In this document: one piece after another, positions 1,054-30,542 of the stretch
Position numbering within the stretch: the stretch's first letter is position 1
Layout of the letters: every line of letters begins with the position of its first letter
Assembly: GCA_020686985.1 (NCBI GenBank)
Contig: JAJEPU010000038.1
Coordinates: 1 to 32,705, forward strand
Length of the DNA stretch: 32,705 bases
Origin: Brotaphodocola catenula
GTDB lineage: Bacteria; Bacillota; Clostridia; Lachnospirales; Lachnospiraceae
Direction of reading: 5' to 3'
Notes under the pieces: model-generated
Databases searched by the model: none
What the model saw: the letters and a program-made list of their open reading frames with translations, nothing else
Told to the model about the DNA's origin: nothing
Made by a program: the position numbers and the translations under genes

Positions 1054-1276
1054 CATGGTTGCCGTCCGCGAACAGTGTGGTATATGGTCTGTCCTCCAGC
1101 CAGTCTAGGAGCTGCTTCTCCCGTTTGCTTTCCTTATCCTCCGCCCAAACCAGTCCGAAATCGCCGCAGATGATCATGTAATCATCGCGCGTCAGCTCTT
1201 TCTGTTCCGGGAAATTCTCCGTATTAAAGCGGTCCGGTTCCGCGTGAATATCCCCTGTCACGTAAATTCTTCCCAT
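1054..1276 (-). pseudogene. Calcineurin-like metallophosphoesterase, 5' exon interrupted by the intron
   Basis: Translation from ATG 1276 gives 74 residues plus one base of codon 75. It shows the first three metal-binding blocks of the metallophosphoesterase family: GDIH (8-11), GDFG (38-41) and GNH (72-74). The family motif is GNHE, and the exon stops after the G of the Glu codon, exactly where the group II intron starts. The few residues read beyond this point are intron sequence. The start has a good ribosome binding site (AAAAAAAGGAGAAAAGAAAA). It lies 60 bp downstream of tniQ on the same strand and may be the next gene of that operon. Function could only be restored by intron splicing, which is doubtful because an IS interrupts the intron. 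Confidence 0.8.
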
Positions 1277-3420: not shown

Positions 3421-5068
3421 GACGAGGCTCCTTTCCGTTCTCGATGCAGCCCATCAGCGCGGTTTCGATTTTTTTCATCTTTCCGTCATCCACGGCTGCC
3501 TGCTTTGTTCCAACCGTCCGTCGTTTTCCTTTTCCGACCTTTTTTAAGACGGCAAGAACCCTCTGAACACGTTCTCCCTTGGCGGCCTTTTTGAAGCCGT
3601 CCTCCTGCTCCGCTTTGGCAAATGCCTTCCGGATCTGAAGTTCCGAATACTCCGGATAACAGTCGGCAACGGATCCGATGACCTGGGATAGGACCGTGTC
3701 CCGGTCGTAACCGCTTTCGATGTTTTCCTTCGCCTCCCTGCGGATCGCTTCCGCCGCCCGTCTTTCCTCATCCGCCAGGGCCGACTGCTGGATATCCGCC
3801 AGCATGTTTTCCCGAAGCTCCAGGAACTTCTGCTCATTCTCAACCAGGGATTCCTTCAACAGCCCCCGCATTTCCCGGATGTGTTTTTCAGCAATCTTAT
3901 GTACATAGGCTTCGTCAAGCACCGGCTGCATCCGGCTGCTCAAAGCCTCGAACTGCAGCATCATCCATAAGGTGGTCAGAAGATCGATGCTTCCGCAGCT
4001 TTCCGCATACATGGCATCCGCGACTTCCTCTGTCAGATCCGCCGCTTTATCCAGCCACTGGTATTTCCAGATCCGGCGGATGATTTCGCCCATATAGGCC
4101 CGGTCTTTGCAATAAGAGTCCGCCCGGATAATCGAGCTTGCCATGCGCCTCTGGATCCGCAGCATGCTGCCCCATAACCTGCACGCCTCCGGGGTTCCGA
4201 TGGCCACGATTGCCACACCCGTCTGTGCCGTGATCGTCAGAAAATTCTCAAAGCTCTTCGCGCTGCTCTGTGAAAAATCAAGGAACTGGATCTCGTCGAT
4301 TGCAATCACCCCGATATGATATATCTCAATCCATCCGCAGACAATGGAAACAATCTTTCCCAGGTTTGCCTTACCCGAAACCGCATTCAGGTGATCCGTC
4401 CCGGTATCCAGCAGCCGGTCGATCTGTTTGGCAAATGAAAGGAACAGGGCCGTCAGGTTTGAATTTGCAAAGGCGGTCAGACGGATGATCGGGATCTGCG
4501 TGTAAAATCCGTCCGGAAAGGTGTGGCGGATGACCCGCGGATACTTCGCGCACGTCAGGTCAAATGCCGTTGATTTTCCCACCCCGGAAGTTCCGACGAT
4601 GGAGAATCCGAGCACATTGGCGGAAATATCGTTCGTGCATGAAATAATATTGGTCGGTGTCTCTTCGCCAGCCACCCTGGTCGGTCTGGCAATCGCCGTT
4701 ATCCCGTTCCGTCTGCTGACGTAGGATGAAATCAGGGCCGTGGACAGATGGTATTCGATGAGAGAGTGGAACGGGAACGGATACCGGATCCGTTTCAGGC
4801 CGATCAGCTGGCGCTTTCTTTCATACGGCGGTGCCGTCTTCACCTTTGCCGGATCATATCCGGGAATCGGGATGCTGTTCTGGCTGAACAGTTCACTGAC
4901 ATCGGCCGCCCGCGGCAGGGCACAGATATCCGGATTGCCCAGATTGCCGTTCCGCTTCCAGTAACGCGCCTCCACACAGTCCTCCGCCGTCAGATCCACG
5001 TCGTCATACAGATTGTCGCTCTCTTCCGTCTCCACGTAATCAAGAGGCATGTCCTTAAGAAATCTCAT
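3383..5068 (-). CDS. tnsC: TnsC-like AAA+ transposition regulator
   Basis: The protein has 561 aa from the ATG at 5068, chosen because AAGGAAGG lies just upstream; an in-frame upstream ATG (5143) would sit inside tnsB. It shows Walker A GTSGVGKST (about 159-167), Walker B VIAIDEIQF (about 253-261) and a sensor-1-like segment VAIVAIGTPE (about 284-293). TnsC is the ATP-dependent switch that links the target-selection protein (TniQ/TnsD) to the TnsAB transposase and gives target immunity in Tn7. The gene starts 22 bp after tnsB ends and overlaps tniQ, consistent with coordinated translation. The C-terminal third is charged and Lys/Arg/Glu-rich. Confidence 0.88.
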   Translation of the reverse strand: MRFLKDMPLDYVETEESDNLYDDVDLTAEDCVEARYWKRNGNLGNPDICALPRAADVSELFSQNSIPIPGYDPAKVKTAPPYERKRQLIGLKRIRYPFPFHSLIEYHLSTALISSYVSRRNGITAIARPTRVAGEETPTNIISCTNDISANVLGFSIVGTSGVGKSTAFDLTCAKYPRVIRHTFPDGFYTQIPIIRLTAFANSNLTALFLSFAKQIDRLLDTGTDHLNAVSGKANLGKIVSIVCGWIEIYHIGVIAIDEIQFLDFSQSSAKSFENFLTITAQTGVAIVAIGTPEACRLWGSMLRIQRRMASSIIRADSYCKDRAYMGEIIRRIWKYQWLDKAADLTEEVADAMYAESCGSIDLLTTLWMMLQFEALSSRMQPVLDEAYVHKIAEKHIREMRGLLKESLVENEQKFLELRENMLADIQQSALADEERRAAEAIRREAKENIESGYDRDTVLSQVIGSVADCYPEYSELQIRKAFAKAEQEDGFKKAAKGERVQRVLAVLKKVGKGKRRTVGTKQAAVDDGKMKKIETALMGCIENGKEPRHDHARMHEADGR

Positions 5069-5090
5069 GATTTTCCTTCCTTTCCGAATT

Positions 5091-7277
5091 TTATAAGCCC
5101 CAATATTTTTCCATTCCGCTGAAATCGTCCGGAAGAACCTCAAGTATCGTTTCGGACGATTTCACCGTCTTGGCTGTCTTCTTTTCCGTAATGTTTTCTT
5201 TTTGATCCCATGTATGTTCCGGTATCCTGCCGGTATCCGGCAGTCCGGTCACAACGTCGGCTTTCCCTGCCGTAAGACGATCTGCAAGCGTATTGGAAAT
5301 CTGACCGTTCTCCTGTTCCTGCTTTCTGGCATTCCGGATGTCCTTTTTCCGGTTCTTTCCGGCATTCTGCAGCTTTTTCGCCGTCCTGATGACATCCGCC
5401 ATGTCGCGCTGAACACTGACCTGCTGCTCCAGATCGTGTGCTTCCAGACCCTTGCCTGTCTCCTTTTTCCGTTTCCAGAGTCCGTCATATTCCTTCCAGC
5501 TCATGTTTTTAAAGGATTTCTGCTCCTCCCGGATTTCGTTCAGGGGGATGACGTGCAGCACGCCGTCTTCCATCAGGTACACGTGATTGATGCTTCGCGG
5601 ATCGTAGCGGACTCCCGGCAGTGCTTCCCTTTTTTTTCCCGTTTTCCACATTTTCTCCAGAAGCCACGGTTCTCCGTTTTCATAGAACAGGCCGCGGTAT
5701 GTAACGCCGCGTCGGGAGATCTGGAACTTCCGGTCCGTTTTCAGAAGTGCGAAAAATGCGGTCTTTTTCGTGCTTTCCGTCAGCCAACGCGGTGTCATCA
5801 GGTATTCACAGCCGTACTGCCAGATGGAGGCCGGGATTGGCGGAACATCTGCCTGAATCATTTCCTTTGTCAGCGGATATCCATCCCGCTTGTGCTGATT
5901 GAAATAAATGACAAACCGGTATGCCATGCGCCGGATGTCGTCCAGATCGGTGCAGGCGGTCTCGTAATGCCGGGAATCATGTTTCTTCATGATGACTCCC
6001 GTTCCGGCAGCCGCTCCTCTCACAAGTTCCTGGAACTGGTGGAATGACTGTTCGACGAGGCCTTTCATGGAACCCGTGGCCGGAGGCGCCAGAACGATGT
6101 TCATTCCGATTTCCCGGCCTACCCGTCTCATGTCCTCCGACGTGTACTCGGCACCGTGGTCCGTTCTAAGTTCCTGCGGAATGAATCCCATCGGGCAGAC
6201 TTCAACCGGTGCGGTCAGACCGTACCGTTCGTACTGTTCCCTTCCGTCAAAAAACAGCGACATCAAAAGGTTGGTGATTCCGACAAACGAGTTGTTCGCG
6301 TAATCGACCCAGCAGCCCACGATGCAGCAGGAATAAACATCGATGGCGAGATACATGACCGCACGCCCGACCACCTGCCTGCTGTCCTGCGTGGACACGT
6401 TGATCATGTCGATTTCCACCTCATCGACCTCCACGATATGGCCGGGACCGGCACAGCCGCTCTGGCTGTTTCCCAGAAGAAGCCTTGCGTTGTTTCGCCG
6501 CTCCTTCGCGCTCATCTTTAACGGCATGATGCCGTTTTCGCCACCCTGCTTTTTGCAGTAGGTCCAGAAACGTTTGTAGGTGGGGATTTCTTCCAATGGG
6601 AGCATCTTCTGGACCAGGGCACCGTCAACATATTCCTGCGTCATGTAGTGCTTTCCGACGAGATAGCGGTATGCAGATTTAAGTGACACTCCGGCCTCTT
6701 TTCCTTTCAGAAAATACTGATAACCGTCCTGAAATATCTCTTCCAGGCGTTCGTCATTGGCAACCGTTTTATCACCATGCCCCCGGACGGAATCTCCTGT
6801 TTTATAGTCATTCACTCTGTTTTTCTCGCCTTTTCTTCCATCAACCAGGGAATACCGATTACGTCCTGACTGAAGGTAAAGCCGAATCAGCTTATAAACG
6901 GTTGTTTTTCGGCAGCCCAGCTCCTGCATGAGCGCTTTTACTTCCGGTTTTGTTTCTTTCGAGGAAATTCTCTCCCATGCCGGATACATACTCTGGAGCA
7001 TGCGTTCCATTGCCTTTGCTTTACGCGCTATCTCTTCTTCTTCATCCAACGTAAGCTTCTTAACCCGGTAATCATCATTCCATTCAACCTTTTCAAATTC
7101 GCCCAGATTCATCCGGTATTTTAAAAGCTCCGTGGAAAAACGTACAATGTTTAACCTGCTTACATCCAGCTGTACGAATATTACCGTATTTTCCGTCAGT
7201 ACAAGAATTCGATAGTATTCCTTATCCGCATGTATTACATTACCCGCCTGTAACTGCGATTGTTCTTTATTTTCCAT
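5091..7277 (-). CDS. tnsB: TnsB-like DDE transposase
   Basis: The 728-aa protein has an N-terminal DNA-binding part with a helix-turn-helix-like segment (about 116-135) and an RNase H-fold integrase core. Candidate catalytic residues are D285 (in HIVEVDEVEID), D373 (in LRTDHGAEY) and E409 (in GLVEQSFHQ), with 35 residues between the second Asp and the Glu, i.e. a DD(35)E layout. TnsB joins transposon 3' ends to target DNA and binds repeated sites in the ends. The ATG at 7277 has AGGAGG upstream and overlaps tnsA by 11 bp. The C-terminal tail, which in Tn7 contacts TnsC, is long and polar here. Confidence 0.9.
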   Translation of the reverse strand: MENKEQSQLQAGNVIHADKEYYRILVLTENTVIFVQLDVSRLNIVRFSTELLKYRMNLGEFEKVEWNDDYRVKKLTLDEEEEIARKAKAMERMLQSMYPAWERISSKETKPEVKALMQELGCRKTTVYKLIRLYLQSGRNRYSLVDGRKGEKNRVNDYKTGDSVRGHGDKTVANDERLEEIFQDGYQYFLKGKEAGVSLKSAYRYLVGKHYMTQEYVDGALVQKMLPLEEIPTYKRFWTYCKKQGGENGIMPLKMSAKERRNNARLLLGNSQSGCAGPGHIVEVDEVEIDMINVSTQDSRQVVGRAVMYLAIDVYSCCIVGCWVDYANNSFVGITNLLMSLFFDGREQYERYGLTAPVEVCPMGFIPQELRTDHGAEYTSEDMRRVGREIGMNIVLAPPATGSMKGLVEQSFHQFQELVRGAAAGTGVIMKKHDSRHYETACTDLDDIRRMAYRFVIYFNQHKRDGYPLTKEMIQADVPPIPASIWQYGCEYLMTPRWLTESTKKTAFFALLKTDRKFQISRRGVTYRGLFYENGEPWLLEKMWKTGKKREALPGVRYDPRSINHVYLMEDGVLHVIPLNEIREEQKSFKNMSWKEYDGLWKRKKETGKGLEAHDLEQQVSVQRDMADVIRTAKKLQNAGKNRKKDIRNARKQEQENGQISNTLADRLTAGKADVVTGLPDTGRIPEHTWDQKENITEKKTAKTVKSSETILEVLPDDFSGMEKYWGL

Positions 7278-7956
7278 CCCGGTACCTCCTGTAAGTTTCT
7301 CTGATTTTCTCTTCGTTACCTTTTACCAGACCTGCAAACCGTATGCTTTCCCTATCCATGGGAATCGATACCGCCTTATGAGCGACCAGGTATTTCAGCA
7401 TGGCTTCCTCGCTCTGCACATGTGCCGGATCGTAATAAGCCATGCAGTGCTCAATGTTAACCGCGAGTGTTTTATTCAGGTTCTCCCGTAAAACAATCCG
7501 AAAATCAATGCCATACCGCGTCCAGTATTCCATCTCAATACATTGCCGCACCAAAAGAGTTTGGTATTTCGGCGAATCCGGATTAAACTCTTCCGCGCCC
7601 GATTTAATGCTGTATGCAATCCTGCTGTCATTACGAAATGTAATGAGGAAATCCGTGGACAGGACATTGCGCAGAACGCGGAATCCATGTTCCTCACAGA
7701 TGTTCCGTACCGTCTCGGAAGAAAGCATCATCTGTTCCTGAATCAGTTTCACGTCATCCCGGTAACGCATAATCCAGAAAAATTCCTTTTCACCCATTGA
7801 TAACGTATCCACGGTCCTTTCCGCAATCGGATCGTATACTGCCGTTGATGTTCCGATACTGCCGATTTCATTTGCTTTAATGAATCCGACGTACCGGTCA
7901 CCGGTTCCGAGGCATCTGCCCTCCTGTATTTTTTTGGCGTCGCTTTTCTGTTTCAA
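7267..7956 (-). CDS. tnsA: TnsA-like heteromeric transposase endonuclease subunit
   Basis: The protein has 229 aa from a TTG at 7956-7954, chosen because GAGGAGGTGAGAAA precedes it; an earlier in-frame TTG at 7977 has no such site. TnsA has a restriction-enzyme fold and cuts the 5' ends of the transposon. Residues fitting the catalytic set are E58 (in GEKEFFW), D102 (in STDFLITF) and K118 (in YSIKSG), close to the E/D/K spacing of Tn7 TnsA. It is the first gene of the tns operon. The stop TGA of a short upstream frame overlaps the TTG start (TTGA), suggesting possible translational coupling. Similarity is at motif level; its position next to tnsB supports the call. Confidence 0.82.
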   Translation of the reverse strand: MKQKSDAKKIQEGRCLGTGDRYVGFIKANEIGSIGTSTAVYDPIAERTVDTLSMGEKEFFWIMRYRDDVKLIQEQMMLSSETVRNICEEHGFRVLRNVLSTDFLITFRNDSRIAYSIKSGAEEFNPDSPKYQTLLVRQCIEMEYWTRYGIDFRIVLRENLNKTLAVNIEHCMAYYDPAHVQSEEAMLKYLVAHKAVSIPMDRESIRFAGLVKGNEEKIRETYRRYRDGK

Positions 7957-8474
7957 TTTCTCACCTCCTCGGTCCAATTATGGACCATTCCGATCCATTC
8001 TCTTTTATCTGCAAGGCTCATGGAATATAAACCTATCTTTTCTTTTTGAAAAAGTTCCTTATATCGACTGTGCATTTTTGAATTTTGACGAACTGAACAA
8101 TCAAAATGACTGTCTTTTGATGTATCTTTTCTTGCGGATAGATGAATTCCGCTTTTCAAGGCAAAATGTATGTATCATCTCGTACACATACAGTCATTTT
8201 GCTTTTAAAATACTGCTTTTCGTGCCGGCACACACTATGACTGTTTATTTCTTCATATTTATCACAAACACACGCACTATGACTGCGTTAGTTCGTGCTT
8301 ACTAACTGCGGATATCAAAATTTATTATATTTCATTTGGGATGACTGTATATTTTTGTTTGCACGCAGTCATTTCGATGTGTGATTTTCCTTTGTAAATC
8401 CAGTTTCCCGGAATCGGGAACTGTGCTATACTTTTGTTATTACTTATGAGAAAAATCTTCGAGGTACACGTAAG
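7957..8474. other. Divergent regulatory region between tnsA and an XRE regulator, with scattered ATGACTG sites
   Basis: No convincing complete gene is seen in these 518 bases. Six copies of ATGACTG or its reverse complement CAGTCAT occur: 8106-8112 (+), 8191-8197 (-), 8237-8243 (+), 8279-8285 (+), 8341-8347 (+) and 8366-8372 (-). The last two form an inverted pair. Several are followed by T-rich sequence. A short minus-strand frame (starting MSLADKREW) ends at 7953 across the tnsA start. The sites could be TnsB-binding sites of a transposon end, since tnsA lies next to an end in Tn7, or operators; mixed orientation favours neither clearly. Confidence 0.5.
8405..8432 (+). promoter_or_regulatory. 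Extended -10 promoter with inverted-repeat operator for the XRE gene
   Basis: An extended -10 TGC-TATACT lies at 8424-8432. A perfect inverted repeat TTCCCG-GAAT-CGGGAA (8405-8420) covers the place where a -35 would be, and no good -35 is present. This layout fits autoregulation by the XRE-type protein encoded 42 bp downstream, which is an inference. Confidence 0.6.
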
Positions 8475-8846
8475 ATGAAATTAAAACGCAATGATGAATT
8501 GATCCCTAAACGGCTCAAAAAACTTCGAGAGGAGAAAAGCTGGTCCCAAACGCAGGCCGGTAATGCCATCGGCGCAGGCCGTGGTGCCTGGCAGCAGTGG
8601 GAACTTCGCAAGCGTACGCCAAGTGACACCGCCCTTGTTGCTATTTCCTATATTTTCAACGTAAGCCTTCCGTATATCTGCGGTGTGGATGACGAACCGA
8701 CTCCACAAAGCATGATTATCCCGGAGTCCCGCTTACAGCCGATGGACCGTAACGGGATTGAGGCTTACCTCAGCCTGACACGGCAGGAAAAAGAGTTTGT
8801 GCGAAAAACCATAGATTTCCTTCAATCTCATCGTCATCAGCAATAA
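8475..8846 (+). CDS. XRE-family helix-turn-helix transcriptional regulator
   Basis: The 123-aa protein has a Cro/CI-type helix-turn-helix at about residues 10-65 (LKKLREEKSWSQTQAGNAIG, then the recognition helix and a PYICGVDDEP linker). A short C-terminal region ends in a predicted helix. The ATG at 8475 is preceded by GAGGT nine bases upstream. It is divergent from the tns operon and has an inverted-repeat operator in its own promoter, so it could control itself and perhaps tns transcription. No peptidase domain of the LexA/CI type is present. Its specific targets are not known. Confidence 0.8.
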   Translation: MKLKRNDELIPKRLKKLREEKSWSQTQAGNAIGAGRGAWQQWELRKRTPSDTALVAISYIFNVSLPYICGVDDEPTPQSMIIPESRLQPMDRNGIEAYLSLTRQEKEFVRKTIDFLQSHRHQQ

Positions 8847-8910: not shown

Positions 8911-9120
8911 TCATTTCTCGTTGCCACACAGCCATGCATCAAAGCTCTCCTTTGGCACACGGTACATGGTCCCGATTTTATGTACAAGGAACGGCTTACC
9001 GTCTTTATAGACCTTTGTCAGGAAATTGTAGGCAGCTGAACGCTTCACTCCAAGCATCACCTGAATATCTTCTGCACTGTACACACGCTGATCAATCTCG
9101 TGTTTCTTCTCATATTCCAT
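8911..9120 (-). CDS. Small excisionase-like helix-turn-helix protein
   Basis: The 69-aa protein reads from ATG 9120, chosen because AGAGGAGAG lies just upstream; a longer frame from 9207 has no such site. The sequence VYSAEDIQVMLGVKRSAAYNFLTK followed by GxxYRVPKESFDAWL is the pattern of the MerR-like HTH_17 (excisionase/DNA-binding) family, where the second part forms the wing. Such proteins act as excisionases or small regulators of mobile elements. No integrase is present in the window, so its partner is unknown. It has a near-consensus promoter of its own at 9245-9273. Confidence 0.75.
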   Translation of the reverse strand: MEYEKKHEIDQRVYSAEDIQVMLGVKRSAAYNFLTKVYKDGKPFLVHKIGTMYRVPKESFDAWLCGNEK

Positions 9121-9244
9121 ATCTGTTCTCTCCTCTCTTTTCCCTAAAAGACGCAAAAAGGCACAGCCCCTGCCGCCAATTTCATGGCCTCTAAACAGGA
9201 ACTGCACCTAGTGGTGTCCTTATCCGTATTCTTTTTACTCTTTA

Positions 9245-9273: not shown

Positions 9274-9416
9274 TCCATATTCTGCTCTTTTCCTCTATCT
9301 TTTCCATTCTTGCTTTTCCATGTTTTCTCGTACTACCTATTTCCATAATTTCCGTATAAATCAAAGGCATTTGGAGTGAATACTTCGTGCCTGTTTTTAC
9401 GGAAGGAGAATATACC

Positions 9417-9749
9417 ATGATGCACGAGTTTTATGATCCTGCAAACCTGCAAAAGATTAAGGTTGCGATTCCGCTGCTGTACAGCCAGTTGGAAAAACTT
9501 CTTACCGGTATACACAAGTGTTGGCTGGTTTTGATATCTGATCCGACTCCATCAAAAGAGACCATAATTCTGTATCTCCTGTATCTGATGGATCTGATGG
9601 ATGACTTTTCGAAGATTTGCAAAAGTCTCCGTGTGGAATATCACACGCGGACCGGAAGTAAGTTTTTCAAGCGGATTAATAATTTCAGCTGCCGACGGAC
9701 GATGCTGAGGATTGCTCTGGCCATGTATGATGACCTCACTTCTCAGTAG
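9417..9749 (+). CDS. Hypothetical protein, 110 aa
   Basis: The start at 9417 is chosen because GGAAGGAGAATATACC precedes it; an in-frame ATG at 9387 lacks a site. I do not recognise the family. The protein is predicted to be mostly helical, with a hydrophobic middle (LYLLYLMDLMDDF) and a basic C-terminal part containing two Cys and several Arg. It has no signal peptide. It is a single-gene unit: a clear intrinsic terminator follows within 20 bp, then the 12-copy repeat array. It could belong to the mobile element's maintenance genes, but nothing in the sequence proves that. Confidence 0.6.
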   Translation: MMHEFYDPANLQKIKVAIPLLYSQLEKLLTGIHKCWLVLISDPTPSKETIILYLLYLMDLMDDFSKICKSLRVEYHTRTGSKFFKRINNFSCRRTMLRIALAMYDDLTSQ

Positions 9750-9763
9750 CACGAGCCTAACAG

Positions 9764-9797
9764 CCTCCTGTCATTTTTGGCGGGAGGTCGCTTTTTT
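9764..9797 (+). terminator. Intrinsic terminator
   Basis: CCTCCTG (9764-9770) pairs with CGGGAGG (9781-9787), 7 bp with one G-U, and is followed by a run of six T (9792-9797). It ends the 110-aa gene just upstream. Confidence 0.75.
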
Positions 9798-9806
9798 CTC
9801 GGGTGT

Positions 9807-10203
9807 TATTAACTTTCGTGATAGCTTATGGTACAGCAATATCAGTTTCGTGATAATCACGGTTGGGCTACGGATATCAGTATACGTGATATCCTGATGA
9901 TTACTGGATATCAGCTTTCGTGATAACTTACAGTACTTACGTATATCAGTTTCATGATAATTTTATTTTGGCAGGAGGTTATCAATATACGTGATAATGT
10001 ACTGGCAAGAATATATCACCTTTCGTGATAACACTCGATATCCGCGGATATCAGCTTCATGATAATTTCCCCCAATGTTTATAGCAGCTTTCGTGATAGC
10101 TTCTTTTCGCAACAGATATCAGTTTCGTGATAGTCTGTAATTTTTCATAAGTTATCACATACGTGATAGCTATGATTTTCCAGAAGTTATCACCTTCGTG
10201 ATA
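9807..10203 (+). repeat. Array of 12 imperfect palindromic repeats at about 35-bp intervals
   Basis: The unit is TATCA-N6/7-TGATA with the directional core TTTCGTGATA. Left arms start at 9807, 9840, 9875, 9909, 9944, 9980, 10014, 10049, 10082, 10117, 10153 and 10188, so spacing is 33-36 bp throughout. All copies face the same way: ten have CGTGATA and two (9944, 10049) have CATGATA. The sequences between copies are unrelated to each other. There is no gene inside the array. The layout resembles iterons, a partition site or a set of operator/transposase-binding sites. No ParA/ParB or replication initiator was recognised nearby, so the binding protein is unknown. Confidence 0.9.
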
Positions 10204-10222
10204 GTTTGCTTGTCAGAAAAAC

Positions 10223-10290
10223 ACGTCATTTTGCTCACCTCTCTTACTTTTCCTCACCGTACCACCCCCAAATACGTCATTTTGCTCACC
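10223..10290 (+). repeat. Two direct repeats ACGTCATTTTGCTCACC
   Basis: The 17-bp sequence occurs identically at 10223-10239 and 10274-10290, 51 bp apart, just after the 12-copy array. Its core GTCATTTTGC also occurs once in the tnsA upstream region (8193-8202). It may be another protein-binding site; the function is unknown. Confidence 0.75.
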
Positions 10291-10416
10291 ATAAGACATT
10301 GATAATTCCTCTTACCTTTAGGCGAAATCTGATCGTCCAAAATAATGGATGACGAGGCGCTCCAGTACAGTTGAAATCCCTGATTATGGGCTATTTGGAG
10401 ATTGCCATTATTATTC

Positions 10417-10456
10417 TTTATAACAGGCACAAAATGTATTATAATGGGTTTAACCC
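10417..10456 (+). promoter_or_regulatory. Promoter and palindromic operator of the 284-aa gene
   Basis: A consensus TATAAT (10440-10445) has a weak -35 (TTTATA, 10417-10422) 17 bp upstream. The perfect palindrome GGGTTTAACCC (10446-10456) follows directly, where transcription would start, a position typical of a repressor site. Confidence 0.6.
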
Positions 10457-10460
10457 AAAG

Positions 10461-10496
10461 ATTGATATGTCAGGCTGCCAAGCAGCACTTATCAAT
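10461..10496 (+). promoter_or_regulatory. Leader hairpin just upstream of the ribosome binding site
   Basis: Outer arms ATTGATA (10461-10467) and TATCAAT (10490-10496) enclose an inner stem GCTGC-CAA-GCAGC (10474-10486). The GGAGG of the next gene begins four bases later (10500). The arms contain the TGATA/TATCA half-sites of the upstream 12-copy array, so this may be an RNA structure, a DNA operator, or both. Confidence 0.55.
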
Positions 10497-10512
10497 TTTG
10501 GAGGAATGATTT

Positions 10513-11367
10513 ATGAACGAATGGAATGAATTCCGAAAGGAATTCTATGGAAAGGATACCATCGAAAGGTACCAAAACGGACTGATTGACTTCTCCCCGG
10601 ACAGCATGCAGGATGTGGAGAATGGCGATTTCAAGTCCTACGATGAATATCTGGAGGTACAGAAACGTTCCAGCAGCAAGGTCCGGCAATTTTTTGAACT
10701 GTGCTACTATCACGTTTCAGGTTTAACCGCTGATTTTAAAGGCCAGATTCTGCGGTTCGATCAGCGGAAAAATAAAGTAATCTTTAAACGCATCATGGTA
10801 AACGGCATGTACGGTGACGGTATCGGTTTTGTCGGCAAGAAAGATCATGTCTGGATTGACAGAACCGGCTTTGAATCATTTCAGCCCGGCGACTGTCTCC
10901 GGTTCGAAGCGGATATTTATCGTTACATGCGTAAAGGTAACGGGAAACGGATTGATTACGGACTGCGGAATCCTGACAATATTGAAAAGATTGATTCTTA
11001 CGAGGTTCCTACCGATGAACAGCTTATCGATCAACAGATTGAGCAGCTTGTCTGCGAGACCTGCAGGTACTTCGATCACTGCTACTTCGGAATGTGTGTG
11101 ACCAATGAAGAGGAACGGTTCGAGACACTGAAAAATTTCCAACCCGGTAAGTTTACACCCTTTACAGTCATGCTTGCATACGAGTTGGAGTATCGTTTTA
11201 TCATGCAAACTAAGAACTTTCGCTGTGATCCCACAAAGCCCAATTTCCCGATTATAAAGAAAATGCTGGAGATCTGTCAGGAGCACCCGGTCTACTATGT
11301 AGGAAATCCGCAGGAAGCATTTGTCAAAATGCTCTTTTCCGATAAACCGCGCATGTACATCGAATAA
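10513..11367 (+). CDS. Hypothetical 284-aa protein with a four-Cys cluster
   Basis: The start ATG has GGAGGAATGATTT upstream. I do not recognise the family. The N-terminal 70 residues are acidic and helical. A beta-rich middle (about 75-155, including DGIGFVGKKDHVWID and GDCLRFEADIYRYMRKGNGK) reads like a small OB-type fold, which is only an impression. A compact cluster CETCRYFDHCYFGMC (about 181-195) could bind zinc or an iron-sulphur centre. The C-terminal part is helical. It shares a likely transcript with the 63-aa acidic gene 18 bp downstream. Promoter, palindrome, leader hairpin and repeat array upstream suggest tight control. Confidence 0.65.
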   Translation: MNEWNEFRKEFYGKDTIERYQNGLIDFSPDSMQDVENGDFKSYDEYLEVQKRSSSKVRQFFELCYYHVSGLTADFKGQILRFDQRKNKVIFKRIMVNGMYGDGIGFVGKKDHVWIDRTGFESFQPGDCLRFEADIYRYMRKGNGKRIDYGLRNPDNIEKIDSYEVPTDEQLIDQQIEQLVCETCRYFDHCYFGMCVTNEEERFETLKNFQPGKFTPFTVMLAYELEYRFIMQTKNFRCDPTKPNFPIIKKMLEICQEHPVYYVGNPQEAFVKMLFSDKPRMYIE

Positions 11368-11385: not shown

Positions 11386-11577
11386 ATGTACGACAGCCAT
11401 ATATTCTGTAAGGAATACAAGGATCTGAAAGATCAGATTGTGGATATTGTGAATGGAGACATAGAGGATTATGACATCGAGGCTCTGGCGGAGCACATTC
11501 AGGAACTGTATGATAATGGCGAAATGTCTTCGTCACAGTATGATGATCTCATGAGCTACATACAGGATTTACAGTAA
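11386..11577 (+). CDS. Small, very acidic hypothetical protein, 63 aa
   Basis: GAAGGAGGCGACACA precedes the ATG. The product has about 17 Asp/Glu and only 3 Lys with no Arg, so it is strongly negative. It is predicted to be helical, with a repeated style of acidic helix (DIVNGDIEDYDIEALAEHI and SSQYDDLMSYIQDL). Family unknown. Size and charge resemble DNA-mimic or antitoxin-type proteins, but small acidic proteins are common and this is speculation. It follows the 284-aa gene by 18 bp and is followed by a clear terminator, so the two form an operon. Confidence 0.7.
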   Translation: MYDSHIFCKEYKDLKDQIVDIVNGDIEDYDIEALAEHIQELYDNGEMSSSQYDDLMSYIQDLQ

Positions 11578-11620: not shown

Positions 11621-12100
11621 TTATACATTTTTTTCTTCTAACACTTCCGTGTCATCTCCGGCGGAATTCCCTTCCGACATCATATTATCAAATATCGTTT
11701 CCTCTATCACTTTCAGACATTCATCCGGCTTTTTTATTATATCCTTACCCCAAAACCGAATGACCGTCCATCCACGGAACAGCAGCGCTTTGTTCACCTC
11801 ATCATCCCGCTCCATGTTTCTTGCAATCTTTTTTACCCAGAACGGTCCGTTGTTTCCGCGCTCCAGCTGAGGTTTCAGCACCTCCCAGTCTTTTCCGTGA
11901 AAAAATTCGCTGTCGCAGAAAATCACAATTTTATACTTCGTCAGAACAATGTCCGGTTTTCCGGGCAGTTCCTCCCAGTTTTTCCTGTATCCGTATCCGT
12001 GCTCTCTCAAAACCTTCCGCAGGACAAGTTCAATCTTTGTGTCTTTTGCATGGATCCGGCGCATGTTTTCACTTCTCCGCTCGCTTACCGGCTTCGGCAT
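11621..12100 (-). CDS. Vsr-family (very short patch repair-like) endonuclease
   Basis: The 159-aa protein matches Vsr from SERRSENMRRIHAKDTKIEL (6-25) through LPGKPDIVL (45-53) to GWTVIRFWG. D50 corresponds to the catalytic Asp of E. coli Vsr. The next block reads FCDSEFFHG (61-69) where E. coli Vsr has FTHGCFWHH, so the active-site His is Asp and the zinc-ligand Cys is Glu; the last His (H68) is kept. This is the variant seen in Vsr-like nucleases without the zinc site. Vsr nicks T:G mismatches made by deamination of 5-methylcytosine, fitting two C5 methylases nearby. It is the last gene of the DISARM-like operon, 15 bp after the NERD-helicase gene, with AAGGAGAG overlapping that gene's stop. 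Confidence 0.85.
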   Translation of the reverse strand: MPKPVSERRSENMRRIHAKDTKIELVLRKVLREHGYGYRKNWEELPGKPDIVLTKYKIVIFCDSEFFHGKDWEVLKPQLERGNNGPFWVKKIARNMERDDEVNKALLFRGWTVIRFWGKDIIKKPDECLKVIEETIFDNMMSEGNSAGDDTEVLEEKNV

Positions 12101-12115
12101 GACCGCTCACTCTCC

Positions 12116-13813
12116 TTAATAATGCACCAGTGCCGTGCATTTCAGCATGGAGGCCAGATCCCTCATGGGTCTGCGCCCAGCACAGGCTCCTTCCGTCCGT
12201 TCCAATGCATTTCGGCATGATTCATTGTCCATGACGGTCATAATCTCCAGCCGGATGCGCGCCCTGGATGCTCCGACATAAAACAGCATGGCATCATCGG
12301 TCACGGTCCGTTCCGTGAAATCAACCAGAATGACCGCGTCCGCTTCAAGTCCCTTGAATTTTCTGCAGCTCATGAATCTGCACTCTCCGTAAAAACCGTT
12401 CTTCGCGGCTTTATTCACAAGGCTGTCTGTTTCCGTTGACAGGGTCAGAATCACGATGTCATTGATTTCGTCCCTGTGCAACCCGTCAATCACGGTATCC
12501 ATGTCTTTCAAATAGGTTTCCTTACTGCTGAAATGGATGCACGGGATTTTTCCCGCAATGCCGCGCAAAACCTCTGTCCTTCCGTGTTCCGGCAGAAGAC
12601 TCAACGCGGTCCTGCATATGTTCTCCGTGTTCCTGCAGTTTTTGTGCAGGGCAAGACGGCATTCCGCATTCCGTATAAGCCACGGAACCTGATCGGACTG
12701 CACCGTCTGGAGTTTGTCGTAAAACACGTAAAAGGATGATTTTGAATCCGGACGGGCCATCACGGCGTCGTGCAGCAACTGAAGCAGTCCCGCATTCTCC
12801 ATCGAGTCACGTCCGAAGTCCTGTCCCTCGTCCACGATGACATGATCATACGGGAAGCTGCCGTATGCCGCAAAATCCTTCAATTTCCGTTCCACCCGCC
12901 CATAATCCGAAACCGGAACGCCGCAAAGCCTGCACGCGTATCCGTCCAGGGTCATGAAGTCAATAAGCAGATTTTCATAATGAAGCGCAAGGAACTTTTT
13001 CAGTTCCGAATTGTAGCAGAGGAAAAGAACCCTTTCTCCGTCCGCGGCATGACGCACGGCTTTTTCAACAGCTATCATGGTTTTCCCCGTTCCGGCGGCG
13101 CCGTTTATGACCGCACTTCTCTGCTCCGTGAGGAAATTCAGAATTCCGCTCTGTTCGCCCAACATTCTGTGGAACACGGCGTGTTTCAGGTCAATGTCAA
13201 ATCCGGGCGGAGGAAATATGTTAAATTCCGGGCAGAGAATCTCACGTACCAGGGCACGGAAATCCACGTCCGAAACATCGGTGACTATACCGGCAGGGAC
13301 CTCCAGTGCAAACAGGCGGTCAATATACGGTGTGGGATTGGCAAGTGCTTCACTGCCCAGCGTAATTTCCCTGTCCGCTTCCAGCGGCATGTCAATCGCA
13401 TCAATCCGGGCATCGGAAAGGGATGGGAACCATACCCCGTGCAGGAATTTGATTTTTTCCGTCAGAGAGCCGAGGCGGCTGTTTCCGATCAGTTCCATTA
13501 GTTTCCATTTGTTTGCAGACGCCTGCCGGAACGGACCTCCCGAACGCATCGGTGCCCCGTTTCCGTACATCCATCGGCCGTCACGAAAGGAAACAGACCC
13601 CGCTTTCGCTTCCAGGCACAGGATTCCCTTCTCCCTGTCGAAGATGATAAAATCCGTCTCGCTTTCATTCAGAATCCCATCCTTCACTTCCGTAAGTCGG
13701 AAGGAATGGAAAACCATGCAGGAATCCGGCAGTTTCCTTAACGCCTCGAACATCACGTCTTCAAGACTTCCTGTCTGAAACGGGTTCGGTATTTCCGGAA
13801 TCATTACGGCCAT
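12116..13813 (-). CDS. NERD-domain nuclease fused to a superfamily 1 DNA helicase
   Basis: This 565-aa protein begins with a nuclease-related domain (NERD, about 10-110): SETDFIIFD with D54 and LEAKAG with E68 and K70 form a PD-(D/E)XK-like site. A UvrD/PIF1-like helicase core follows: Walker A GAAGTGKT (238-245), Walker B VDEGQDF (327-333), KNCRNT (391-396) and a final GASRARI motif near 525. The gene starts one base after the drmB stop, so the two are translationally linked. In a class 2 DISARM locus this slot is normally held by drmC, a phospholipase D-family nuclease; none is found here. A functional replacement of DrmC is inferred, not shown. Confidence 0.85.
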   Translation of the reverse strand: MAVMIPEIPNPFQTGSLEDVMFEALRKLPDSCMVFHSFRLTEVKDGILNESETDFIIFDREKGILCLEAKAGSVSFRDGRWMYGNGAPMRSGGPFRQASANKWKLMELIGNSRLGSLTEKIKFLHGVWFPSLSDARIDAIDMPLEADREITLGSEALANPTPYIDRLFALEVPAGIVTDVSDVDFRALVREILCPEFNIFPPPGFDIDLKHAVFHRMLGEQSGILNFLTEQRSAVINGAAGTGKTMIAVEKAVRHAADGERVLFLCYNSELKKFLALHYENLLIDFMTLDGYACRLCGVPVSDYGRVERKLKDFAAYGSFPYDHVIVDEGQDFGRDSMENAGLLQLLHDAVMARPDSKSSFYVFYDKLQTVQSDQVPWLIRNAECRLALHKNCRNTENICRTALSLLPEHGRTEVLRGIAGKIPCIHFSSKETYLKDMDTVIDGLHRDEINDIVILTLSTETDSLVNKAAKNGFYGECRFMSCRKFKGLEADAVILVDFTERTVTDDAMLFYVGASRARIRLEIMTVMDNESCRNALERTEGACAGRRPMRDLASMLKCTALVHY

Positions 13814-13814
13814 C

Positions 13815-16166
13815 TCATTCCATCCCCCTGATTATACCCTGATTGTTTTCATCTGGCCCGTCCGGTCCGTAAATGCACTTCATGCCGTTGGCTGTCGCGG
13901 TTTCCATGGCTTTTTCCTGACCGGAAGCAAAATACATGATTTCCGAATCCTGCCAGTAATAATCACATTCCCAGGTACCGGAGTTCCCGGGCACGCTGAA
14001 TTTCACATCCCGAAGCGGCATCCGTTTCCCAGCAAGCACGCCGCTGCTTTCAAGCCATTCGGCGAAATTCCGCTCTCCGTCGGTTTCCGAAAACTGTGCA
14101 ATGTCGGAAACCACCGTTTTCCAGCTTTCCCCGCGCATGTCCGTTCCCGCGGTGATGAACACGCATTCGTCCTTCCGTTCGTTTTTCACCGTCTTCCCTT
14201 CCGGGACTCCGGTCACATGTTTCCACCCGTCATTTCCGTATAACTGTTCATGGAAAAAACCGAGTCTCTTATTGCCGTATGTTCCGGCAACCACTCCGCG
14301 ATCCAGGAAAACGTTGAATTCCTCACAGCAGGTTTCCGGGAGAAGGCAACAGGAATAACATGCCGCAAGGTTCAGGGAATCCCTTCCCTGGCCGTTGCTG
14401 AGGGAACATACCGGGTCATTGGAACAAATGACTGCCGATTCGATTGCCTTTCTGTATATGTGCGGGAACGTGTCGCATTTTCCCTGACGCACAAGTCCGC
14501 CGAGGGTGCCCTCCGAATCTCCGCTTGCCGTGTAAATCAGGATTCCGGCCATTTCCTTTCCGTCCGCGGCTTCACCGCAGTAGATTCTTTCCTTTAGTGA
14601 GGACACGTTGTATCCGCATTCAAAACTCAATTGCTTAATCAGCAGATGCGAAACGGTATGAAGAAGCAGGAATTTCCCGGAAATATCCCGTTTGTGCTGG
14701 CTGCCGATGAATGATTTGTCATAGTTTTCCTGAAGCATTTTCACGCGCTTTTCCAGTGCTGCGTTTCCGCTTCTCCACCTGTTGATTGCATCCTCGTCAA
14801 ATTCGATGAAAATACCCTCACCGTACACGTTGTAGCCCGGATACCAGTCATCTTCCGCTTTTTTCACGGAAACAAACTTGGAATTTGACTCCCCGTCCGC
14901 TATCATGGATGCGGAAAAAGGGCTGATTCTTGAAAAACCGAGCATTACCTGCACTTCGCGTATTTTTTCAATCAGGGAAATGCTTTTTACAAACGGAATG
15001 CCGTATGTTTTTATGTCGGTTCCGACACGCTTGAAATCATCGTAGTCCGTTCCCGTGACGGAGGCTCGCCCGGAAAGGGCATCGAATTCCGCGGCCCTGT
15101 ATTCGATGCTGCCCGTATCGTAATTGATCACCTCGCCCGAAGACATCCGCCTGCCAAGAATTTCGCGCACCTGTTCCCTTCTGCATCCGATGTTATCCGC
15201 AATCTTTTCCGCATATTCATCAATCTTGTTCTGTATGAAAACACTCGTCTGTTCTTCCGGAAGGTTCATGCTGTTCTTCATGTCCATGGCCGCCTTGATT
15301 GTGTTCCTGAACTCTTCATACAAGGCGCTGTCTTCGACGCGGCTGTTGATGATATCCGAAAACGGCGGAATGACGAGGGAACTTGCCGTTACCGGGAAAT
15401 ACACGGAAGAACTTCCCCTCTGCAGTACCTTCGGATAGCACGGGCACGCATCCGTCCAGTTTTTCCACGGATGTCTTCCTTCGCACGTGAAATCATATCT
15501 GTTTTCCGTTTTCTCATCTAACAGTCCGAATATCCCGTCATTGAAAGCATCCTTCAACGTGGCCGATGCATTGCAGGTGGTGCATTTCAGACTGAGACCT
15601 TCCAGTCCTTCCGATGCGACTGGGCTTGTCGTGAACGTAAGCTGCGGGTTCGCGCAAACCGGTTTCTGACCTCCGAAACTCTTGGCGTGCGTCCATTTCA
15701 CCCACGGAAAATCATTGATGTGTCCCCGCTCGCATACCGTCACGATTCTTGCCACGACGAGTTCAACGCGATCCTTCGGACAGTAAAGCCTGCGGCTCAT
15801 GTTCCGGTTGTTTGTTTTTTCCTGATCCTTCGCCTTTTTGTCAAATTCGGCAATCCATTTCGAAAGGGGCTGGAAGCGGCGGCATTTCGGGCAGAAGTAC
15901 CATTCCGGGAACCTGGCATACGCGATTCCGTCCCGGTTTTTGCCGCCTGCCGGCATTCCGAAATACCGTACCCCGAGTGATTTTTCCAGACGTTCATCGT
16001 GAATGCGCACGATCTGATCGTTCCAGTATTCCGGTGCCGCCGTCATGAGTGTCTGGGAAGGGAAATCAACCATTGCACCGACACCGTACTGCAGCACCGC
16101 CTGGGACGCACGCACCGCATGGGATGTTGCGTTCAGTCTGATTTTTTCAATGTTTTTACCTGTCAT
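13815..16166 (-). CDS. drmB: DISARM protein DrmB (DUF1998)
   Basis: The 783-aa protein shows DrmB features: an N-terminal RASQAVLQYGVGAMVDFP segment (19-36), YFCPKCRRFQPLSKW (90-104), a Cys/His region with CERGHINDFPWVKW (145-158), and a C-terminal DUF1998 region with LLHTVSHLLIKQL (about 508-520), IYTASGDSEGTLGGL and a Cys-rich AACYSCCLLPETCCEEF. In DISARM, DrmA and DrmB form a complex that senses and acts on incoming phage DNA. The ATG at 16166 has GGAAGGAGG upstream and overlaps drmA by 11 bp. Length and motif order look intact. Confidence 0.93.
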   Translation of the reverse strand: MTGKNIEKIRLNATSHAVRASQAVLQYGVGAMVDFPSQTLMTAAPEYWNDQIVRIHDERLEKSLGVRYFGMPAGGKNRDGIAYARFPEWYFCPKCRRFQPLSKWIAEFDKKAKDQEKTNNRNMSRRLYCPKDRVELVVARIVTVCERGHINDFPWVKWTHAKSFGGQKPVCANPQLTFTTSPVASEGLEGLSLKCTTCNASATLKDAFNDGIFGLLDEKTENRYDFTCEGRHPWKNWTDACPCYPKVLQRGSSSVYFPVTASSLVIPPFSDIINSRVEDSALYEEFRNTIKAAMDMKNSMNLPEEQTSVFIQNKIDEYAEKIADNIGCRREQVREILGRRMSSGEVINYDTGSIEYRAAEFDALSGRASVTGTDYDDFKRVGTDIKTYGIPFVKSISLIEKIREVQVMLGFSRISPFSASMIADGESNSKFVSVKKAEDDWYPGYNVYGEGIFIEFDEDAINRWRSGNAALEKRVKMLQENYDKSFIGSQHKRDISGKFLLLHTVSHLLIKQLSFECGYNVSSLKERIYCGEAADGKEMAGILIYTASGDSEGTLGGLVRQGKCDTFPHIYRKAIESAVICSNDPVCSLSNGQGRDSLNLAACYSCCLLPETCCEEFNVFLDRGVVAGTYGNKRLGFFHEQLYGNDGWKHVTGVPEGKTVKNERKDECVFITAGTDMRGESWKTVVSDIAQFSETDGERNFAEWLESSGVLAGKRMPLRDVKFSVPGNSGTWECDYYWQDSEIMYFASGQEKAMETATANGMKCIYGPDGPDENNQGIIRGME

Positions 16167-19100
16167 CCTGATCGTCCTCCTTCCACTCGATGATGGAGCC
16201 CGGCACCATCACGTCAACGTTTCTCATGGATGTCATGGTTTCGAATGCCGGATCCTCCCGGAAGGTTCCGAACACTTTCATCAGGCGTTCTCCCGAAGCA
16301 TCCGGATTTTTCACCATGAACTTTCTGCCATAGCAGAAAATCTCCTCCGCATCTCTCGCCAGATCGTCCCATTTTTCCAGAATGTCCTCCATTTCCCTTT
16401 TAAGGTCAGCGGAGTCGTCCTTCATGTGAGGATTGATGCGGCGGTTGACATCAACACAACGTTTTACCATGTACCCGACGATATTATCAACTGTCTTTTT
16501 ATTGTCTTCCACGCGGAACTTTATTGCATCGGTTTCACCGGACAGCCCGCCCGCCGAAAGCCTTATGTAGGCAATCAGGACCGCATGAAGTGCCCTTTTC
16601 CGTGCAGGTGCCGAAAACGGGGTGGCGCCCGTCGGTTCCACGTGACGGTAGAAGGATTCGTGATACGGCCTGAACTGCTCATAATGAGATCTGTCGCGGC
16701 TCTTTCCTCCGTCATACATGGCAAACGCCACACCCGAATATTCACGTCCGACACGGCTGGATGCCTGGATGTATTCACTGGTGAGTTTCGGCTGTCCCAC
16801 CAGAAGCATTACGTTCAGCCGCGCAACGTCGATTCCGACGGAGATCATGTTTGTCGCCAGCAGGACATTGCACGGATACGGCGGCAGGTGGTTCTTCATG
16901 TTTTCCGTTGAATACTTATTCTTTTCCAGTTTGTCCAGTGTCTGGTTCAGCTGGGTGGTGGAAACACGGCTGGTCAGTTCGTCCGCGGTTCCGATTTTTC
17001 TCACTTCCGCGTTTGATTTCAAACGGTAACACATTCGCTTCATGAAGTCCTTGACGTCATCATCTACCATGGTGGCCGCCTTGCCAAGATCCTTCAGACT
17101 GTTGAAATAAGCGGTGAGCGTCCACAGTTTGTCCTTTACCTCGTCACTGGCATTCATATCTTTCGCTTTCTGCAGCATCGCGGCCATGGAGCGGATTTCC
17201 ATCATTGCCTTGGTCTTGCCCGATGGCATGAGTCCCACGTATTTTCTTCCGAAATTTTCCTTACCGTAATCAATCTTCTTTTCCCTTGCGAAGAAGGAAT
17301 CCTCCGCATCCAATGCCGGATGGGGGAACTGGCTGACATCCCGGTCGTAAAGAGCGGCGCACTGTTCCACCGCCCGGCGTATCGTCGCCGTTGACGCCAC
17401 GATTTTCGTCACGTTTCCTTTTCTGCGGCAAAGGGCATCCACAGCGCTCTCGTACAGACCGACCATGGTTCCGAGCGGGCCGGAAATCAGATGAAGCTCA
17501 TCCTGTATGATAAGCTCCGGTGCCCGGTTCCCGGAATTAAGCGCAAAGAAATTTCCGATCCGGTTCTCCCACGGAAGCATCGCGAATTTATCCACCGTTC
17601 CGAAAAGGAGCGTCGGCGGTTCGTTGTACAGTTCCTCGTCCACCACCTGAACTGGAAGCCGGTTCCCGAACGGGCATGCCTGCCTCGTGCAATAAAGGGC
17701 AAAGTGATTCCCTCCGTGCATCTTGTAGCCGAAAGCGCCGCGGATTTTTTTATCCCCGTCCCTTTCCGGTGTCATGCGGGTTCCGCACCATGGACATTTC
17801 AGGACCTGAAACTTATTGTACGTGTCCTTTGCATATTCCAGATTGTAGGAGGTTGCCTTGCGAAGTTTTTCCAGATTCTTTTTTGCCCCGTCATCAGTGT
17901 TCGGCGTGTGCTCCCCTCCGATCCACAGTCCTATGGTGATAGGAACCGTTCCGAGTGCGTAATGCCCGTACACGGGGTTTCTTGATTCGCAGTCCTTACG
18001 GATCAGTTCGCAGGCACATATAAGCGTCGAGGCTCTCGTAAACTGCTGCGCCGCAAGCAGTCTGAGCGTATACCGCATGATGACGGTCGTTCCTCCGTCC
18101 AGTCCGGGATACCGGAAACGCCGGTAAAAAATGGTCATTGCGGTCAGTCCCAGGTATGCTTCCGTTTTTCCGCCTCCGGTCGGAAACCAGATCAGATCCA
18201 CCAGGGAACGGTCGGCGCTGTCGTCATCAGTCACCGAGGCCACGTCCAGAAGCATGAACGCAAGCTGGAACGGTCTCCAGGCATACCGATCCTTTGAAAA
18301 GATTTCATCCGCCGTTCTGTAATCCATGTTCCTCAAAACATCCGACAGGACTTTTTCATCCGGATACGATGCCGGATATTCTCTTTGGACCGCAAGCTGA
18401 ACACGTTGCATGAACATGGCACGATTTGCAAGCTGAAACGCATCCCAAGCCATGTCGTCTTTTTCAAGAATGCGGATTCCATTCCTCATGCGTTCGCACG
18501 CTTCCCGACAGCCTTTCAGGTTCCTGTCCGCAGCCTTTGCAAAACGCGGTTCCAGTGCATGCGAACGAGCAACCAGATCATCGATCCATGCGGAATATGC
18601 ATCGACCAGAGTTTTCAGATCATGGATTTTCACACCCTTTTCCGTGGTGTCCAGATCGGAAAGATATTTCATGGACAGTGTCCGGCCGTTGACCCCGCAA
18701 TCATCCGGAAGTGCGAAATCCATGGACGGAACTTCAAACTCCGGGAAAAAGTCATTGCATATGAATCCCGTTCCGCTATCATCGATTTTCCAGTTGACCG
18801 CCGTTCCGAGTCCGGTTCCGTATACATGCTTGTTTCTGTACTGGAGTTCCAGGGATTGTTCTTCTGCATCAAGAAGATCGAAATTTGTGGTTCCGGAATA
18901 CTGCACAAACGAAAAACCATTATTTTCCGAATCCACCCGAAGCTCCGGTTGGAAAATGCAGTTGCTGCTCTGCGGCCGTTCCGTTTTGGCATTGACCACC
19001 ATAATTGTCAGGGCCGTGGTTCCATTTTCCATCTTCCTCCTGAGAGCCGTTATTTCCACAAGACCGTGATCCGGAATGTGCGATTCATTCACGTAATCCC

Positions 19101-19860: not shown

Positions 19861-19862
19861 GT

Positions 19863-22457: not shown

Positions 22458-22476
22458 CGGACTCCCTCCTTTCGCG

Positions 22477-30007: not shown

Positions 30008-30314
30008 CTCATCAACTCCTTAATCTTATCACACGGGTATTTCACCGACCGCTGCAATGGAATACTGAGCCCGGTATCCGTGTTGATTTTTTCGTTGCAA
30101 CTATATCATTATCGAATTCGAATATCCAATTAGCGGTTTCTGCGGATAACGTTTTGAGTCAAATTTTCGCTCAGACGTTTCTGCCTGAAATCATAAAGCG
30201 CTTTATCATAATTCCGGTACCGGTATTTCGTTCATTTCATCATTCGCCAAACCGTTGCCGCCACTATATCATCAAGTTTTTTAAATTGCAAGAGGGTATT
30301 TTCAGATAATCAGA

Positions 30315-30524
30315 TGTTTGAGAAATAAAAGGAAAACACTTTATCAGCCTTGTTCGCGATAGATGGGAAAACACAGATTTCAAGTTTTAATCTCTTATTC
30401 GCGATAAAAGGGAAAAACCATTTGCAGGTTTTTCCCTTTCTGTTCGTGATATAAAAGGAATTTTTTTACGCTTTTTTTTACCCCTTGTTCGCGATTAGAG
30501 GGAATGTTCGCGAAATAAAAGGAA
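30315..30524 (+). repeat. Six direct repeats of TGTTCGCGATA-N3/4-GGGAA type
   Basis: Copies start at 30315 (diverged, TGTTTGAGAAATAAAAGGAA), 30351, 30396, 30441, 30486 and 30505 (TGTTCGCGAAATAAAAGGAA). The intervals are 36, 45, 45, 45 and 19 bp. All face the same way and end in GGGAA or AGGAA. Number, size and irregular last spacing resemble the transposase-binding sites in Tn7-like ends, but the orientation (TGT pointing inward from the left) is wrong for the right-hand end of an element lying to the left. The core TTCGYGATA is shared with the 12-copy array at 9807-10203. Confidence 0.85.
30407..30439. terminator. Long inverted repeat, possible terminator
   Basis: AAAGGGAAAAACC (30407-30419) pairs perfectly over 13 bp with GGTTTTTCCCTTT (30427-30439) around a 7-base loop. 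It lies about 100 bp past the rsfS stop and could end that operon, but it overlaps the repeat array, so it may instead be part of a binding site. Confidence 0.5.
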
Positions 30525-30542
30525 TTAAACAAAACAAAGATC

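Follow-up and report, generated by a model that had tools for sequence, protein, structure and literature searches.

Much anti-phage defence is carried by Tn7-like transposons, which are also the source of RNA-guided insertion tools; their familiar cis-acting sites are the ends and the attachment site. Operators of the lambda type (CI/Cro family) are palindromes of 16–17 bp with TATCA...TGATA arms and half-sites one helical turn apart, and the sopC centromere of the F plasmid is composed of 12 repeats of 43 bp. CRISPR repeats are near-identical and about 23–47 bp in length.

Inside a large Tn7-like transposon that lies next to rsfS and carries DISARM-like and other defence cargo is an array of 12 palindromic sites. 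The array acts like an operator or iteron array, yet no tested family fits it in full. It resembles lambda-type operators in the conserved outer half-sites of its palindromes, in the length of 17 bp in 6 of 12 copies and in the occurrence of such palindromes in viral clusters of two or three, but it has twelve sites at a pitch of about 35 bp, six of which have a centre that is shorter by one base, and the closest promoter-like site on the plus strand is 214 bp away. Like sopC, it comprises about a dozen evenly spaced palindromes; unlike sopC, it is located in a chromosomal transposon, with a pitch of 35 rather than 43 bp, mostly unrelated spacers and no partition genes among the proteins scanned. 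With plasmid iterons it shares multiple copies, one orientation and an even pitch, whereas its palindromic sites, their spacing by non-integral helical turns, the lack of a Rep family among the scanned proteins and the lack of a plasmid DNA match set it apart. The arrays of TnsB sites at the ends of Tn7-like elements (PMC8649781) likewise place sites of about 20 bp in an intergenic stretch, but the present array is internal, palindromic and built from another motif. No such array is described in the titles and abstract openings of the literature searched.

Architecture of the array

9807..10203, + strand: array of 12 palindromic sites, consensus WTATCA-SYTTTCG/SYTTCG-TGATAR, pitch 33–36 bp

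The window, that is, the whole stretch of DNA analysed (32,705 nucleotides, Brotaphodocola catenula contig JAJEPU010000038.1), contains 12 TATCA-N6/7-TGATA palindromes in a single orientation on the plus strand, starting at 9807, 9840, 9875, 9909, 9944, 9980, 10014, 10049, 10082, 10117, 10153 and 10188; a thirteenth match is a solitary site at 30812, within rsfS. Both arms are exact in 10 of the 12 copies, the left arm of copy 1 being TATTA and that of copy 9 TAGCA, and the sites divide evenly into 17 bp (N7, 6/12) and 16 bp (N6, 6/12) forms. The right half, TnCRTGATA, is better conserved than the left, with TGATA in 12/12 copies and a variable centre, and it is this conserved right half that sets the common orientation. 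Left-arm pitch is 33–36 bp (mean 34.6, s.d. 1.0), with spacers of 16–20 bp between sites. In 500 sequences generated with a dinucleotide model of the array region, the mean number of copies was 0.022 and the maximum 1, and, given 12 sites in the array span, the probability of all gaps being 16–20 bp under random placement is 1.1e-10. The pattern search and gap statistics therefore bear out the original prediction of 12 copies in one orientation at 33–36 bp steps.

The spacers, which had been described as unrelated, appear so for the most part (mean z of 0.77 over 55 pairs, of which 3 were reached by at most 3 of 300 shuffles). There is clear similarity between spacers 10 and 11 (z of 5.3), so at least part of the array expanded via duplication, followed by drift.

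Elsewhere the 3.3-Mb genome of the organism lacks the core motif: all 8 of its matches of TATCAN4-5CGTGATA fall within the array. The looser TATCAN5CRTGATA has 4 matches in the array and 2 elsewhere in the genome (contigs C24 and C28), with 1 for the reversed control.

The array stretch folds better than shuffled sequences (plus strand, z of −4.5; minus strand, z of −3.9). When six copies were folded singly, 4 gave hairpins of −3 kcal/mol or weaker, copy 9 among these being unfolded, and the two strongest gave −5.3 and −8.8 kcal/mol. Rfam yielded no match over the array at the gathering threshold, and the sole promoter-like site within it is weak and on the minus strand (9985–9957). A CRISPR array was considered and rejected, as the repeats here are 16–17 bp with variable centres rather than near-identical units of 23–47 bp, and the window proteins covered by the Pfam and PADLOC scans include no cas effector or adaptation family, with only a weak Csx26/HNH match at 27127.

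Genes and signals flanking the array

The array is located between two genes without family assignment, encoding proteins of 120 and 284 residues.

8911..9207, − strand: HTH_17 (excisionase-like) protein, 26.9 against 27 bits, just under the Pfam cut-off
9387..9749, + strand: 120-aa protein, no Pfam family
9763..9794, + strand: terminator-like hairpin (stem 9763–9788) with T run, after the 120-aa gene and before the array, a consensus match only
10219..10239 and 10270..10290, + strand: two 21-bp direct repeats AAAYACGTCATTTTGCTCACC, between the array and the 284-aa gene, from a repeat search
10417..10445, + strand: promoter-like site upstream of the 284-aa gene, a consensus match only
10455..10503, + strand: leader hairpin before the 284-aa gene, fold z-score −3.0
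10513..11367, + strand: 284-aa protein, no family match
11386..11577, + strand: 63-aa protein, no family match

The promoter-like site of the 284-aa gene begins 214 bp past the end of the array; promoter-like sites are not enriched in the region (6, compared with 7.8 in shuffles). The 63-aa gene is likely to be co-transcribed with the 284-aa gene. The leader hairpin had been thought to carry the half-sites of the array. It does fold well, but its segments TTGATA...TATCAA are in reverse order and about 20 nt apart, and it is not a copy of an array site. A strand-reversed core of the 21-bp repeats, AGCAAAATGAC, is also present at 8193, in the control region between xre and tnsA.

Relatives of the 284-aa protein in other genomes of the family share 45–51% identity over part of its length. 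Its profile has no match among solved structures, and its structure model is too poor for use (mean pLDDT of 36.8); the profile of the 120-aa protein gave weak matches only (E of 0.43–0.66). The 120-aa protein has a possible weak relative, 27% identical, at the same place in G117, a genome with a related element (E of 3e-5 in a search of three loci), and this relative is absent at E of 1e-4 from a larger search. Three viral matches of the 120-aa protein (27–28% identity, E of about 1e-4) look like chance, the match in L144, the one locus read, falling within a helicase reading frame. Owing to their similar identity and E-value, the G117 relationship is weakened and rests mainly on position.

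The host transposon and its cargo

1336..3420, − strand: tniQ, first of two, TniQ above cut-off
3383..5143, − strand: tnsC, AAA_22 above cut-off
5091..7277, − strand: tnsB, rve at 20.6 bits, below the cut-off of 32.6, homologous to TnsB of other elements
7267..7977, − strand: tnsA, TnsA N-terminal domain above cut-off
8066..8372, no strand: GACTGT/TGACTG motifs, candidate XRE operators, in the xre–tnsA control region
8475..8846, + strand: XRE-family regulator, in divergent orientation to tnsA, as also in two related elements
11621..23889, − strand: DISARM-like cargo comprising vsr, NERD-UvrD helicase, drmB, drmA, drmE and a DrmMII-like methylase (Pfam, PADLOC)
30314..30530, + strand: six outward-pointing sites of the TGTTYGCGATATAAAAGGAAA type at the rsfS-side transposon end, found as sequence repeats against the rsfS stop codon

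The window, which is the whole of contig C44, contains the Tn7-like gene set tnsA, tnsB, tnsC and tniQ. The second tniQ, of 814 aa, is on contig C22, where it is followed by a 657-aa gene and by outward-facing end repeats as at rsfS; the TGTTYGCGATATAAAAGGAAA motif occurs there at 7387–7634, so that outward-facing sites of one type are found at both ends. In the element of G117 the gene order is tnsA-tnsB-tnsC-tniQ-tniQ, and end repeats that match lie directly past the second tniQ. Parts of a group II intron are present in the window (768–1002) and on C22 (1802–1886, preceded by a reverse transcriptase), and the two contigs seem to meet in this intron, a join that we infer. The element extends over 1336–30530 of the window and 1–7640 of C22 (locus L126), in the rsfS–glmS region. 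Between the two tniQ genes, the intron (window 768–1276, L126 156–2464) apparently interrupts a metallophosphatase-like gene, and at the contig edge before it (window 1–90) the end of an IS3-type transposase gene can be recognized by eye. Abutting the first end in L126 is a second, inverted end, followed by a stretch 92–93% identical to window 29743–30335; this region (7640–8724) is what remains of a further element in tandem.

In 13 of 17 same-genus rsfS loci, counted with the organism's own locus and two fragments of genome G716 set aside, glmS is convergent and 95–301 bp downstream of rsfS; one of the other four has only 147 downstream bases. The organism's own glmS is on C22, but the junction on that side is not a clean one: the transposon end borders the inverted end, and about 4 kb containing ABC-transporter and D-glutamate cyclase genes precede glmS. 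Tn7 itself homes to the glmS region (PMC10293859).

Further cargo to the right of the array comprises an NgoMIV-type restriction system and HNH and PARG-type genes. Within 24229–26014 are the NgoMIV-type restriction enzyme and a C5 methylase, the latter scoring best against Druantia DruM models. The DISARM-like module, vsr and the NERD-UvrD helicase are kept as a unit in G114, from another genus (L159/L160), with vsr at the opposite end of the cluster.

The array in other genomes, viruses and plasmids

A two-site pattern matched 2 of 371 class-level genomes, the organism's own included, and the other match is a solitary symmetric pair. The palindrome pattern has at least one match in 91 of 200 family genomes, but no comparable array of diverged sites appears among the matches listed and the per-genome counts for these 200. 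Tandem repeats of 33 bp in G004 (L134, about 1072–1204) and of 34 bp in G047 (L133, about 1690–1880) contain TATCA-N6/7-TGATA; they were rejected as relatives of the array because their units are near-identical. Among viral contigs, three palindrome patterns retrieved 3, 35 and 22 loci. The 57 loci of the last two patterns hold at most three TATCA-N6/7-TGATA palindromes together, and as the viral clusters were retrieved with two-site patterns, the presence of two palindromes in each is by construction. A blast search with 9380–10500, a method weak on short repeats, found no match among 72,556 records of plasmids and 50,697 of phages.

Arrays with other arms, which exact-pattern scans overlook, were sought by exact 7-mers in 28 sequences (the window included), in 11 loci and in 10 loci. 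Five-copy chains were observed in L067 (G025), L076 (G075) and L077 (G067), with further chains in L159 and L164. The chain in L067 (11670–11821) consists of five TATTCAA copies at about 44-bp steps, on a contig with a distant TnsB relative, and its copies are possibly the end sites of that element itself.

Relatives of TnsB were found in 17 other genomes, of which 12 were examined, and a TnsB search of genome contigs gave 3 loci. Neither G117, where a relative of the 120-aa protein may also be encoded, nor G205 has the array beside its tns and xre genes, and L059 and L060 lack it over their extent. Helicase matches were found in 14 other genomes, of which seven were examined. The array is missing beside the defence module of G114, where homologues of vsr, the methylase, drmE, drmA, drmB and the helicase are present, and beside helicase homologues in six further genomes. 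The 284-aa protein has matches in five other genomes, a weak one in G001 lying outside the loci compared, and the four loci with its relatives (L127–L130) have no array. Neither an accessory of the defence module, which G114 keeps without the array, nor a partner of the 284-aa family, which L127–L130 have without it, is a tenable description. The original prediction proposed to look in related genomes for gene families that always accompany the consensus; no comparable array was found in the relatives or genomes searched. It had also looked, as evidence against itself, to loci that lack the array while conserving its neighbours: absence alongside tns and xre (G117 and G205), the defence module (G114) and 284-aa relatives speaks in part against a conserved role, and no locus with all of the neighbours conserved was found.

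A candidate docking site for an element-encoded protein

Our leading reading, which we hold tentatively at a probability of about 0.4, is that the array is an element-specific cis-acting docking site for a putative dimeric DNA-binding protein, probably regulatory. Each 16–17 bp palindrome would hold one dimer of the helix-turn-helix type, its two TGATA half-sites being about one helical turn apart, and with twelve sites about 3.3 turns apart many dimers could assemble cooperatively into one large nucleoprotein complex. Owing to this pitch, the dimers would be arranged in a spiral and not on one face of the helix. The likeliest role of such a complex would be in regulating or silencing the adjoining 284-aa and 63-aa genes and the neighbouring cargo. 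The original prediction took the regular pitch as a sign of selection for cooperative or higher-order binding; a multi-site protein–DNA structure stays the best reading, with arms and spacing kept and the core motif confined to the array, whereas cooperativity, like the DNA-binding dimer and the regulatory role, is a step that we infer.

The invariant right TGATA and its matching left arm would fit sequence-specific binding by a dimer, and the retention of arms and pitch while most spacers drifted argues for selection on a multi-site structure. As the core motif is absent from the rest of the genome, the binding protein is probably encoded by the element, and a host-wide regulator is unlikely. 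The position of the array, with the terminator-like hairpin on one side and the 284-aa gene's promoter-like site on the other, also counts in favour of a docking site, as do the single clusters of two or three such palindromes on viral contigs, which have the layout of a lambda-type operator. Against it are the placement 214 bp upstream of that promoter-like site, which is odd for a simple operator, and the even split between N6 and N7, a difference in length that one would not expect a rigid dimer to accommodate. The occurrence of 284-aa relatives without the array, the lack of an array relative across the species searched and the matches of the looser motif in C24 and C28 weigh on the same side.

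Alternative readings

A transposase-binding array was among the original suggestions, and the sites would then be bound by TnsB at a subterminal or internal position. The right half of the array sites, TTCGTGATA, does resemble TTCGYGATA, which forms the inner half of the end sites on the rsfS side, and a matrix of the six window-end sites placed 9 of its top 100 non-end windows in the array, against 1.3 expected, the nine inner-half matches being copies of one motif and hence not independent. This likeness fades when both ends are used (six window-end and six C22 sites), with 2 of the top 100 in the array (1.3 expected), 0 for the outer half and 1 for the full site. With the end-site matrix (19 matches representing 18 sites, one window site being doubled, one of the six missed and seven taken from the inverted C22 end), all 12 array sites score negative and rank 932 to 14351 of about 65,000 windows. 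The end repeats, beside rsfS and on C22, are thus a different motif, the array is internal to the element rather than at its boundary, and TnsB binding is very unlikely. The XRE regulator at 8475, also named at the outset, is encoded about 1 kb from the array, and XRE proteins bind palindromes of this type. In the three xre–tnsA regions compared (window 8066–8372, L058 7578–7708 and L068 18065–18214), however, the outstanding common 6-mer is ACAGTC/GACTGT, with 5, 3 and 3 copies in the window, G117 and G205 (0 of 300 shuffle sets, for 6-mers with three or more G/C). No exact array-type palindrome is found in these regions, the window having a one-mismatch match at 8313. From this comparison of sequences, ACAGTC is likely to be the operator of the XRE proteins, which are 39–46% identical in the two related elements. 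As ACAGTC is common to the xre–tnsA regions and the array motif is not, and as G117 and G205 lack the array, we consider an operator array for the XRE protein very unlikely.

A sopC-like site for partition or anchoring, at which dimers would spread, tether or segregate an extrachromosomal or replicating form, accords with how many sites there are, with their palindromic form and with their even spacing, and its geometry fits. No Rep, ParA/ParB, ParM/ParR or TubZ/TubR family was found among the window proteins scanned, which tells against both this reading and the origin or centromere of the original prediction; the 120-, 284- and 63-aa proteins, which have no family match, might include an unrecognised partition adaptor. 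Because the element is located in the chromosome next to rsfS, and because Tn7-like elements are not known to require a partition site, we regard this reading as improbable. The array could alternatively be a relic or a repurposed part of another mobile element, such as plasmid iterons, a phage immunity region or a different transposon end, captured as cargo. Such an origin, which we judge unlikely, agrees with the accessory nature of the segment, absent from the related elements G117 and G205, and with the pairs and triplets of the same palindrome form on viral contigs; but blast of 9380–10500, for what it detects among short repeats, gave no plasmid or phage match, the scanned neighbours include no replication family, and the arms seem too well preserved beside largely drifted spacers. 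If the array were instead transcribed, its twelve small RNA hairpins could titrate a protein as a sponge RNA does, and a hairpin loop of 6–7 nt per palindrome would account for the tolerance of both N6 and N7. The fold z-scores on both strands agree with this reading but are expected of any palindromic array, and the single copies fold poorly, 4 of 6 at −3 kcal/mol or weaker and copy 9 not at all. The invariance of TGATA means that there are no compensatory pair changes. With a terminator-like hairpin preceding the array, a weak minus-strand site as the only internal promoter-like site and no Rfam match at the gathering threshold, a transcribed array is distinctly unlikely.

The preferred reading, of a docking site for an element-encoded dimer, has a wider form that we hold to be doubtful: the array would be a new kind of internal cis-element of Tn7-like transposons, centromere-like or silencing in nature, at which a protein of the element builds a large nucleoprotein structure that controls the accessory cargo or the fate of the element as a whole, apart from the TnsB-bound ends and the XRE switch. 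If this is true, the internal twelve-site array would provide a further layer of control, over cargo or over mobility.
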